Assembly (NCBI RefSeq): GCF_012767755.2
Contig: NZ_AP023189.1
Location: 4,714,001 to 4,778,000 of the forward strand
Direction: 5' to 3'
DNA from: Pseudomonas tohonis
GTDB lineage: Bacteria; Pseudomonadota; Gammaproteobacteria; Pseudomonadales; Pseudomonadaceae
DNA length: 64,000 bases
Below the pieces are notes generated by a model, which had not been told where the DNA came from, made no database searches, and saw nothing but the letters and a program-made list of their open reading frames with translations. A program made the position numbers and the translations under genes. Below, piece by piece: positions 17,448 to 22,486 of the stretch (position 1 is the stretch's first letter; each line of letters begins with the position of its first letter).

Positions 17448-19403
<1,956 letters not shown>

Positions 19404-19443: not shown

Positions 19444-19510
19444 TTTGTATCCCCCGCCTCCCTGTGGGGCCATTCGACCATGGTCTTACCGCATACGGAC
19501 TATGGTCTAA
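19444..19510 (-). promoter_or_regulatory. acs promoter/activator region with two related motifs
   Basis: Reading toward acs, a -10-like TACAAA (19449-19444) is preceded by a GGGAGGCGG block (19462-19454), AATGGCC (19474-19468) and AGACCATGGT (19486-19477), which includes a perfect 10-bp palindrome GACCATGGTC at 19476-19485. A second copy, GACTATGGTC, lies at 19498-19507. The same ordered blocks occur at 20765-20807. LuxR-type regulators (ErdR/AgmR) are known to control acsA in Pseudomonas; assigning these motifs to them is inference. Confidence 0.55.
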
Positions 19511-19952: not shown

Positions 19953-20309
19953 ATGCGTTCCTGGTTCTACCTGCTCACGGCGATCTTCTTCGAAGTCGTC
20001 GGCACCACCTCGATGAAATTCGCCACCCAACACGCACCCCTGCTCGGCTACCTCGCGATGTACGTGCTGATCGGCCTGTCCTACTTCTTCCTCGCCCTGG
20101 CGGTGAAGCGCGTCCCGGTTGGCGTCGCCTATGCGCTGTGGGAAGGCATCGGCATCCTCCTGATCACCGCCGTCAGCGTCGCCTGGCTGGGCGAGAGCCT
20201 CGGCCTGGCCAAGGCGCTCGGCCTGGCCGTGATGATCGTCGGCATCCTGCTGATCAAGTTCGGCACCCGCACCGAGCCCGTGGCCCGCGGCCAGGAGGTG
20301 GCGGCATGA
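19953..20309 (+). CDS. mdtJ: SMR family transporter subunit (MdtJ-like)
   Basis: Small multidrug resistance protein of 118 residues with four membrane helices. The first helix carries the conserved glutamate in [14 protein letters not shown], and helix 3 has the family block [18 protein letters not shown] lies just before the ATG. Its stop overlaps the start of the second SMR gene (ATGA), so the two proteins are almost certainly made together and form a heterodimer. The paired arrangement and length resemble MdtJ/MdtI spermidine exporters, but the substrate is not shown by the sequence. Confidence 0.85.
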
Positions 20310-20635
20310 ACGGCGTGACATGGATCCATTTCGCCTGGCTGGGCGTGGCCATCGCCCTGGAAGTCCTGGCCAACGTCCTGCTCAAGTACTCCGACGGCTT
20401 CCGTCGCCGCGTGCTCGGCGCCGTCTCCATCCTCTGCATCCTGGCGGCCTTCACCGCACTGGCCCAGGCGGTGCGCGGCATCGACCTGTCACTGGCGTAC
20501 GCCATCTGGGGCGGCTTCGGCATCCTCGCCACGGTCGCCATGGGCTGGGCACTGTTCGGCCAGCGCCTGGCCTGGAAGGGCTGGCTCGGCCTGCTCATGC
20601 TGGTGCTGGGGATGGGCCTGCTCAAACTGGCGTGA
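20306..20635 (+). CDS. mdtI: SMR family transporter subunit (MdtI-like)
   Basis: Second half of the SMR pair, 109 residues with four helices; the conserved glutamate is in [20 protein letters not shown] and the helix 3 block is [13 protein letters not shown]. The ATG overlaps the mdtJ stop by 4 bp. The same frame stays open from 19934, but that upstream part is a shadow of mdtJ. The downstream hairpin at 20676-20695 has its T-run on the opposite strand, so it does not look like a terminator for this gene. Confidence 0.85.
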
Positions 20636-20667
20636 CCAGTCCCTCTGCGAAGAGGCAGATCGCAGGC

Positions 20668-20758
20668 AAAAAAATGGGCGACCCTCGGGTCGCCCGTTCA
20701 ATCATTCCGGGAGAGGAATGTAGAAACGCTTGTGTCCGCATCACGCAAGATTCAGACG
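20668..20758 (-). ncRNA. Candidate small regulatory RNA, ~91 nt
   Basis: No protein is encoded here, but the minus strand has the layout of an independent small RNA. An acs-like promoter region lies upstream (20765-20807). The transcript can form three stem-loops: arms CUUGCGU / ACACAAG (20749-20743 with 20735-20729, one mismatch), a perfect 6-bp stem CAUUCC / GGAAUG (20720-20703) exposing the loop UCUCCC, and a terminator hairpin GGGCGACC / GGUCGCCC followed by A and seven U residues (20695-20668). A C-rich loop complementary to Shine-Dalgarno sequence is typical of trans-acting riboregulators. The start point is inferred from the -10-like TAAAAA. I do not recognise a named family. Confidence 0.65.
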
Positions 20759-20764
20759 GCGCCC

Positions 20765-20807
20765 TTTTTACCCGCCCGCCTCCCCCCGGGCCATTGCACC
20801 AAGGTCT
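20765..20807 (-). promoter_or_regulatory. Promoter region of the candidate small RNA, resembling that of acs
   Basis: On the plus strand it shares with the acs upstream region the blocks TTTT, CCGCCTCCC (20776-20784), GGCCATT (20789-20795) and ACCAAGGTCT (20798-20807; ACCATGGTCT at acs). Spacings are 11, 13 and 9 bp here and 11, 14 and 9 bp at acs. This points to a shared activator. Confidence 0.6.
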
Positions 20808-20811
20808 AACA

Positions 20812-20924
20812 GGCCGTTGAAACCTGGACGGCAGCGGAGACGAACCGACCGGGAGCGCAGATCACGCGGGCATCTTGCGGGCGCTTCCAACGCCGCAGCG
20901 ACAACGCAATGGGTTTCAACGGCC
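20812..20924. repeat. 113-bp element bounded by 13-bp perfect inverted repeats
   Basis: Arms GGCCGTTGAAACC (20812-20824) and GGTTTCAACGGCC (20912-20924) are exact reverse complements, ending 2 bp from the phhR stop codon. The 87 bp between them code for nothing obvious. It may act as the 3' hairpin of phhR mRNA or be a MITE-like relic. Confidence 0.55.
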
Positions 20925-20926
20925 CG

Positions 20927-22486
20927 CTAGGCCTCCTCGCGCCCCAGCCCGTGCTGGCGCAGCTTGTTGGCGATGGTGGTGTGCGACACGCCCAGGCGCT
21001 TGCCCAGCTGGCGGCTGCTCGGATGGTCGGCGAACAGGCGTTCGAGCACCGCCTTCTCGAAGCGCCCGAGGATGGCCTCCAGCCCGCCATCCAGGGAGAA
21101 GTCCCCCAGCGGCTGCGGCGCGCCGTAGTCCGGCAGGCGGATGTGCTCGGCCTTCACCGTGCCCCCCTCGCACAGGGAAACGGCCTGGAACAGCACGTTC
21201 TCCAACTGCCGCACGTTGCCCGGCCAGTGGTAATGGCCAAGGCGCTCCAGCGCCTGGGGCGCCAGGCGGGGCAAGGCGCAGCCGATCTGCCGGCTGGCCG
21301 AGTCGAGGAAGTGCTCCACCAGCGGCCCCAGCCCGTCCAGGCACTCGCGCAGCGGCGGGATGTGCAGCGACAGCACGTTGAGGCGGTGATAGAGGTCCTG
21401 GCGGAACTCGCCCCGGGCGCAGAGCTCCGAGAGGTCCACCTGGGTCGCGCAGATCACCCGCACGTCCAGGTACACCTCCTCGTCACTGCCCACGCGGCGG
21501 AAGCAGCCGTCCTGGAGGAAACGCAGCAACTTGGCCTGCAGGCGCGGGCTCATCTCGCCGACGCCATCGAGGAACAGCGTGCCGCCGGCGGTCAGCTCCA
21601 GCAGGCCGAGCTTGCCTTCCGGGCGCGCGCCCTCGAAGGCGCCGGGGCCGTAGCCGAACAGCTCGGTCTCGGCCATGGACTCGGGCAGGCCGGCGCAGTT
21701 CAGCGCCATGAAGGGCGATTGCCCGCGCGGGCTCGCCAGGTGACAGGCGCGGGCCAGCAGCTCCTTGCCGGTACCGGTCTCGCCCTCGATCAGCAGCGGC
21801 GCGTCCAGGGGCGCCATGCGCCGGGCCTCGCGCACCACGGCGGCCATCACCCGCGAACTCTGGAAGATGCTGTCGAAGCCGCGCAGCTCCTGCTTGCGCA
21901 CGTGGTAGATGCGCTCGCCCACGCGGTCCGCGCGGTGCAGGGTGAGCACCGCGCCGGCCAACGCCTCGCTCTCGTCGTGCTCGGATTGCAGCGGCGCGAT
22001 ATCGGCGAGGAACACATCGCCCTTGACCTTCACCCGCAGGCCGTTGATGCGCGCCTTGTTGGCCCGCACCAGCTCCGGCAGGTCGAAATCCTCGGTGTAG
22101 CGCGACAGCGGGATGCCCGGCACCTCGTCGACGCGCACGCCCAGCAGCTGCGCGGCGGCACGGTTGGCGGCGACGATGGAGCCGCCCATGTCGATGGACA
22201 GCACCGGGAACTCCAGCGCCCCGAGCAGCGCGTTCAGCTCCAAGTGGCGACGCTCGCTGGGCATCAGCCCCACGCGCTTGACGCCGAAGACCCCGGGAAT
22301 GCCCTCGAGCTTCGGCCGCAGCGATTGCAGTTGAAGGTTGATCAGGTTCGGGCAGAGCAGGTAGATCGCGTTGCCCTGGTCGCCGCCGACTTCGCCGCGG
22401 TTGACGTTGATGCCGTAGTCGACGAGCAGGTTGAGGATGTCGCGCAGGATGCCTACGCGGTTCTGGCAATGGACTTTGATACGCAT
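20927..22486 (-). CDS. phhR: PhhR/TyrR-type regulator of aromatic amino acid metabolism
   Basis: A 519-residue transcription factor that responds to phenylalanine/tyrosine and activates phhABC. Domains: N-terminal ACT-like (1-75; MRIKVHCQNRVGILRDIL), PAS (~80-190), AAA+ (~205-430; Walker A EGETGTGKELLARACH, Walker B GTLFLDGVGEM), C-terminal HTH (~480-519; LGKRLGVSHTTIANKLRQHG). The loop that reads GAFTGA in sigma54 activators is GAFEGA here, as in TyrR-like proteins that can work with sigma70. Divergent from phhA across 257 bp containing a clear PhhR box. Confidence 0.94.
   Translation of the reverse strand: MRIKVHCQNRVGILRDILNLLVDYGINVNRGEVGGDQGNAIYLLCPNLINLQLQSLRPKLEGIPGVFGVKRVGLMPSERRHLELNALLGALEFPVLSIDMGGSIVAANRAAAQLLGVRVDEVPGIPLSRYTEDFDLPELVRANKARINGLRVKVKGDVFLADIAPLQSEHDESEALAGAVLTLHRADRVGERIYHVRKQELRGFDSIFQSSRVMAAVVREARRMAPLDAPLLIEGETGTGKELLARACHLASPRGQSPFMALNCAGLPESMAETELFGYGPGAFEGARPEGKLGLLELTAGGTLFLDGVGEMSPRLQAKLLRFLQDGCFRRVGSDEEVYLDVRVICATQVDLSELCARGEFRQDLYHRLNVLSLHIPPLRECLDGLGPLVEHFLDSASRQIGCALPRLAPQALERLGHYHWPGNVRQLENVLFQAVSLCEGGTVKAEHIRLPDYGAPQPLGDFSLDGGLEAILGRFEKAVLERLFADHPSSRQLGKRLGVSHTTIANKLRQHGLGREEA

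Follow-up and report, generated by a model that had tools for sequence, protein, structure and literature searches.

Structure and position of the unit between phhR and acs

Does the DNA between phhR and acs in Pseudomonas tohonis encode a small RNA, and if so, what would control it and how might it act? In the window, by which we mean the whole stretch of 64,000 nucleotides that was analysed, phhR, a compact structured unit and acs follow one another on the minus strand. We take phhR to be a TyrR-like regulator and acs to be acetyl-CoA synthetase. The features of the locus are as follows.

17448–19403, minus strand: acs, presumed acetyl-CoA synthetase; downstream of the RNA and on the same strand in many relatives.
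19470–19488, minus strand: ACTU box of the acs promoter, TAAGACCATGGTCGAATGG; the sole other exact match in the genome.
19953–20309 and 20306–20635, plus strand: two genes, presumably of the small multidrug-resistance (SMR) type, between the RNA and acs.
20668–20757, minus strand: small RNA gene with a predicted 90-nt transcript; based on fold, genus conservation, family covariance-model matches and a start taken from CrbR promoter geometry.
20668–20695, minus strand: intrinsic terminator (20676–20695) with U7 tail (20668–20674); from the fold and a terminator scan.
20703–20720, minus strand: hairpin 2, stem CAUUCC/GGAAUG, loop UCUCCC (20709–20714); the stem is well conserved, the loop poorly so outside the genus.
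20722–20732, minus strand: single-stranded linker CAAGCGUUUCU, a candidate seed.
20734–20757, minus strand: hairpin 1, loop UUGCGU (20743–20748); from the fold, with changes on both sides in 5 of 5 modelled pairs.
20765–20770, minus strand: -10-like hexamer TAAAAA, read from the sequence.
20791–20809, minus strand: ACTU-type box (CrbR/ErdR site), TTAGACCTTGGTGCAATGG; its exact pattern occurs at only two places in the genome, and a relaxed form in relatives.
20927–22486, minus strand: phhR, presumed TyrR-like regulator; upstream same-strand neighbour of the RNA.

A sequence-only reading had put forward a 91-nt minus-strand unit here. This stretch folds at -35.9 kcal/mol, against a mean of -23.07 for its shuffles (z -4.13; 0 of 200 shuffles as good), and the fold contains the elements described in that reading: a 5' stem-loop, a perfect 6-bp stem with UCUCCC in its loop and a terminator stem. 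The terminator scan agrees with the GC-rich stem and seven U proposed there, returning 8 bp (7 G-C) with a loop of 4, ATTTTTTT, on the minus strand at 20695–20676. This is the only such site in 20000–21500, and shuffles of the region average 0.9, so that the terminator by itself is unremarkable. A structured body of 50–200 nt with a terminator and a U-tail, which is the test applied for Hfq-dependent base-pairing small RNAs, is present. No protein fits the unit well, as had been stated: the ATG frame that runs through the RNA falls out of register between species via a one-base difference in the linker.

Distribution across genomes

A DNA search with a 156-base query matched over most of the query in all 18 genomes of the genus, the P. 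tohonis genome included, at 84–92% identity in the other 17; this genus-wide presence indicates that the unit is more than chance. A first body-only model (26 sequences) matched 98 of 298 family genomes at E <= 0.001, some weak false ones among them, and a second model (53 sequences) matched 103 of 398 (about a quarter) at E <= 1e-4, in 9 of 19 genera. Five of these 103 genomes (G285, G076, G209, G228 and G132) were rejected on inspection, the others having been inspected in part. The model matches at L248, L119, L120, L121, L123, L124, L136 and L137 were rejected as well, all being devoid of a box, and two of the 80 submitted loci (L165 and L206) gave no match. Family BLAST matches that covered part of the query only, mostly the terminator, were left out of the counts. 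Hairpin-pattern records include P. resinovorans, P. otitidis, P. alcaligenes, P. mendocina, P. chengduensis, P. anguilliseptica and P. peli, in a listing that also holds unrelated chance matches.

In the sister genus g9, weak matches at E <= 0.5 occur in 25 of 25 genomes (best 2.7e-4), with a box in 0 of the 30 weak matches inspected and no convincing copy seen in these 25 genomes. Outside the family, an order-level search gave ten matches, in eight genomes, and all ten look like terminators; one of these loci, L094, has a single chance box, on the opposite strand. A BLAST search of the P. tohonis genome found no second copy (next best E 0.02, over the terminator), and plasmids and phages gave no match at E 1e-5. 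One rejected match, in G285 (L105, 2017–2111), lies between phhR and acs, although it is box-less and looks degenerate; it is perhaps a decaying copy. Two copies of the RNA, L125 and L126, each with a box and on different contigs, were found in G117 (g18), whose contamination figure of 6% means that they may reflect a mixture.

Covariation of the stems

The covariation to be expected across Pseudomonas relatives if the proposed fold were real was found. In the 68 distinct rows, pairing is kept in 97.6% of cells, two-sided changes occur in 15 of 19 pairs and double changes in 103 cells; 0 of 500 shuffles reach any of these figures, in a comparison where the shuffles ignore relatedness and the rows include the rejected L105 (present in alignment A2, not in A3). 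Slid versions of the structure bring the paired cells down to 40–53%. Alignments A2 and A3 were fitted to the model structure, which is thereby favoured; in a smaller free alignment (26 sequences), 4 of 19 pairs have two-sided changes, and none of these is in hairpin 2.

A promoter of the acs type

The unit had been said to have an acs-like promoter region, and the comparison of the two promoters bears this out: TTAGACCTTGGTGCAATGG upstream of the RNA resembles TAAGACCATGGTCGAATGG upstream of acs, and the similarity runs from the box on to the -10. The 19-base pattern TNNGACCWTNGTNNAATRG, drawn from RNA promoters with the acs promoter already seen beforehand, is found without mismatch only twice in the genome of 6.83 Mb, at the acs and RNA promoters. 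Allowing one mismatch gives four matches, against one for the reversed control. The right half of the box at the RNA is imperfect in this genome (GTGCAAT vs GTCGAAT at acs). The -10-like hexamer, at the same alignment position in the 18 same-genus genomes, is TAAAAA in 17 and TACAAA in one; a sigma-70 consensus scan detected no promoter at the RNA unit. An ACTU inverted-repeat box directly upstream of a putative sigma-70 promoter, the sequence hallmark used for the CrbR/ErdR regulon, is found here.

According to the accessible text of Sepulveda and Lupas (PMC5715377), the ACTU inverted repeat is required for CrbR activation. In P. fluorescens, CrbR has its box at -52 to -36, and acs transcription starts 34 bp before the first codon. 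When this geometry is applied to the window, the predicted acs start falls 33 nt before the ATG and the published box-to-start spacing would place the RNA +1 at 20757. Of the transcript ends first proposed, the terminator end at 20668 is kept and the start at 20758 would shift by one base, giving a predicted 90 nt.

Of 90 distinct rows (98 rows of extracted loci, a subset of the second-model family matches), 86 have a relaxed form of the box within 60 nt upstream, 73 of them at 42–43 nt before the model start; its rate in flanking DNA is 0.0023 per stretch searched. The four box-less distinct rows are L217 (at a locus edge), L263 (a near miss), and L105 and L248, which were not accepted as members. 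The boxes of the first 30 loci are not independent, because the DNA queries that found them included the promoter. The g7, g17, g18 and g19 loci, found by the body-only model and missed by the DNA query, carry the box too; in most g7 loci its right half is degenerate.

Taken on sequence grounds, these comparisons establish a small RNA gene, how it is structured and conserved, and what type of promoter it has; we have little doubt that the RNA gene is real and carries a CrbR-type box.

Candidate pairing surfaces

Which part of the RNA would then meet its partners? The sequence-only reading had taken the UCUCCC loop as the main seed, through which the RNA would repress translation by pairing with Shine-Dalgarno sequences. 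Within the genus this loop is indeed kept in 17 of 18 genomes, and a C-rich hairpin-2 loop occurs in 54 of 88 distinct members of the family, by a stem-pattern count that overlooks L258 and a few other variants. It is, however, missing in about 34 of the 88, including g15, g17 and g19 rows that have both box and terminator: g15 has a different hairpin in place of hairpin 2, the g17 loop is UAGU, the g19 loop is CU, and UUUCGA and GUUUUC are further examples of loops in the family that are not C-rich. Weighted information over 53 rows amounts to ~0.76 bits per column for the hairpin-2 loop, against ~1.5 for the hairpin-1 loop (CUGCG) and ~1.45 for the linker AAGCGUU, which places it last in conservation among these three single-stranded elements; YUGCG is found within the first 40 nt in 82 of 88 distinct members. 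Given the variant loops across the family, UCUCCC is a feature of the genus and not of the family. The conservation foreseen for stems and loop alike was therefore found for the stems, and for the loop only among close relatives, and a role of UCUCCC as the main seed seems unlikely. The interpretation first offered is upheld in part: a free-standing small RNA gene with an acs-type promoter and its own terminator is supported, and its proposed seed is weakened.

In g17 (L111, L115, L116 and L118), the hairpin-1 loop is AGGAG or GGGAG, Shine-Dalgarno-like instead of anti-Shine-Dalgarno, and the box and terminator are kept.

Cis or trans action

The order phhR, RNA, acs on one strand is common in relatives, where acs often lies 120–300 nt downstream. 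Such an order would suit a leader or attenuator of acs, that is, a transcript from a distal CrbR promoter that stops at a conditional terminator before acs. In the window, however, 1265 bases and two opposite-strand SMR genes separate the RNA from acs, and acs has its own ACTU box. Among the 18 same-genus loci, 13 have SMR genes next, on the opposite strand. The g7 and g18 loci examined show no acs and no phhR within ~2 kb on either side, and at L176, L177 and L210 (P. mendocina, P. chengduensis and P. khazarica) no acs is present within 3–4.5 kb downstream, as fits a trans-acting gene. Since promoter and fold are kept through these varied arrangements, a trans-acting gene explains the unit better than an acs leader, which we consider very improbable.

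Sequestration of a protein, either RsmA (CsrA) or Hfq/Crc, in place of base pairing is a common role of small structured RNAs of two-component systems. In Pseudomonas, CrcZ/CrcY and RsmY/RsmZ are two-component-controlled small RNAs that sequester proteins through repeated motifs: RsmA sponges of the RsmY/RsmZ type carry several GGA motifs in loops, and Hfq/Crc sponges of the CrcZ type several A-rich AAnAAnAA motifs. These repeated protein-binding motifs are absent from the RNA described here, which has just two GGA motifs, both within predicted stems, and no AAnAAnAA run in its body as read directly, so that a sponge of either type is no better a prospect than the acs leader. Least probable of all is that the RNA is no more than a terminator or 3' untranslated region belonging to phhR. 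It follows phhR on the same strand and holds the sole terminator found there, but it has its own conserved promoter and covarying hairpins upstream of that terminator, and in the g7 and g18 loci examined it occurs without phhR within ~2 kb.

Proposed mode of action

A CrbR-activated Hfq-type base-pairing small RNA, co-controlled with acs, is the best explanation and in our judgement a probable one; its mode of action, Hfq-type base pairing, is on its own reasonably likely. The ~90-nt RNA would be transcribed from its own sigma-70 promoter, driven together with acs by the CrbS/CrbR (MxtR/ErdR) acetate two-component system, and would act in trans. Its folding, U-tail and terminator would fit an Hfq-bound base-pairing RNA, for which the likeliest pairing surfaces would be the hairpin-1 loop (Y-UGCG) and the AAGCGUUU linker, the C-rich hairpin-2 loop being a putative lineage-specific extra contact able to meet Shine-Dalgarno sequences. 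In this way, the RNA would tune the translation of mRNAs that need to change on the switch to acetate. We infer that CrbR controls the RNA in this organism and that the RNA binds Hfq, acts by base pairing and is a repressor.

In the accessible text of PMC9927353, most tested ErdR targets of P. aeruginosa rose in an erdR mutant, which suggests that ErdR might repress here. In P. putida KT2440, according to the accessible text of PMC8402216, ErdR gave no shift of the acsA-I promoter, which is without the motif. Together, these partly accessible reports make the direction and generality of control uncertain. CrbS was sought in the P. tohonis genome via SSF domains, with six matches, none of them clearly a sensor kinase.

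Limited target searches gave nothing convincing, whether with the linker complement, among neighbouring genes or at acetate kinase. The linker complement occurs 28 times in the genome, counting the site in the RNA gene itself, and the reversed pattern 8 times; four of the 28 share a repeated context, and two are in near-identical copies. Mechanically called start codons lie near 9 of the 28 sites, none shown to be a real and conserved target. By a crude duplex score without accessibility, the window start regions rank 14 (phhR), 38 (SMR2), 49 (acs), 94 (phhA) and 98 (SMR1) among 110, spurious frames included. The acetate kinase gene is present in 17 of 18 genomes, and 16 leaders were scored: the shuffle fraction for loop 1 was 0.03 in the P. 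tohonis genome, 0.04 in G008 and 0.07–0.23 in the other 14, and for loop 2 and the linker it was 0.12 or more. The places L271, L275, L280 and L282 of the P. tohonis genome share the context CCAAAAACGCTTGCCCC around the linker complement, apparently a repeated element.

We give about even chances to a wider reading, in which the Pseudomonadaceae acetate two-component system also acts after transcription, through a single ancestral RNA driven by CrbR. This RNA would have arisen, or been retained for long, between phhR and acs, with hairpin 1 and the linker largely fixed and the second hairpin swapped between genera. The variants of the second hairpin would be the C-rich loop, the other loops and the different hairpin of g15, with g17 carrying an AGGAG loop in hairpin 1. 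Under this post-transcriptional-arm reading, such swapping would let the RNA gain and lose target sets while its trigger stays unchanged.

Comparison with known RNAs and regulons

The unit had been called unannotated, and Rfam 15 concurs: neither the window nor six relatives gave anything at gathering score, weaker matches being well below it. The top weak match, over the full model, was to the alphaproteobacterial suhB/MmgR RNA (Rfam RF00519), which has a similar hairpin layout and whose hairpins have C-rich loops. Membership in this family was rejected, at 18.9 bits against a gathering score of 41. In the accessible part of the literature, with supplements and most subscription journals outside its scope, we found no report of an RNA that belongs to the CrbR/ErdR regulon or lies in the phhR–acs interval; transcript tables may include this one without naming it. 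The RNA appears to be an undescribed regulator.

With the CrbS/CrbR (MxtR/ErdR) ACTU regulon, as presented in the accessible text of PMC5715377, the unit shares the box sequence, its position relative to the predicted start and the neighbouring acs target. It differs in that the target is an RNA gene, and the accessible text of PMC5715377, PMC8402216 and PMC9927353 contains no such RNA. SdhX (RybD) of enterics is similar in being a small RNA at a central carbon locus, on the 3' side of a gene and linked to acetate (PMC6393394, accessible text). According to the same partial source, however, SdhX is released from the sdh-suc mRNA by cleavage and acts on ackA, whereas the RNA here has its own predicted promoter, and pairing with ackA has no consistent support in the leaders scored.

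For acetate use, CrbS/CrbR has a known role as a transcriptional switch, to which an RNA with an acs-like promoter box would add a second layer, one that could silence mRNAs while acs turns on. The RNA family is well bounded: its stems covary, a diagnostic box marks its promoter, and some genera show it while others do not. This makes its targets and evolution directly testable in environmental strains.

DNA between phhR and the box

Between phhR and the box of the RNA, a stretch of ~117 bases (20810–20926) with inverted ends, GGCCGTTGAAACC and GGTTTCAACGGCC, looks like a small inserted element; it has one partial match elsewhere in the genome (83%, 54 bases). L023 likewise has TTCAACGGCC adjoining its box. 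In 11 of 18 same-genus loci (L012, L013 and nine more), the phhR alignment stops 46 nt before the model start, so that, judging by the coordinates, the TAG stop codon would fall within the ACTU box TTAGACC.
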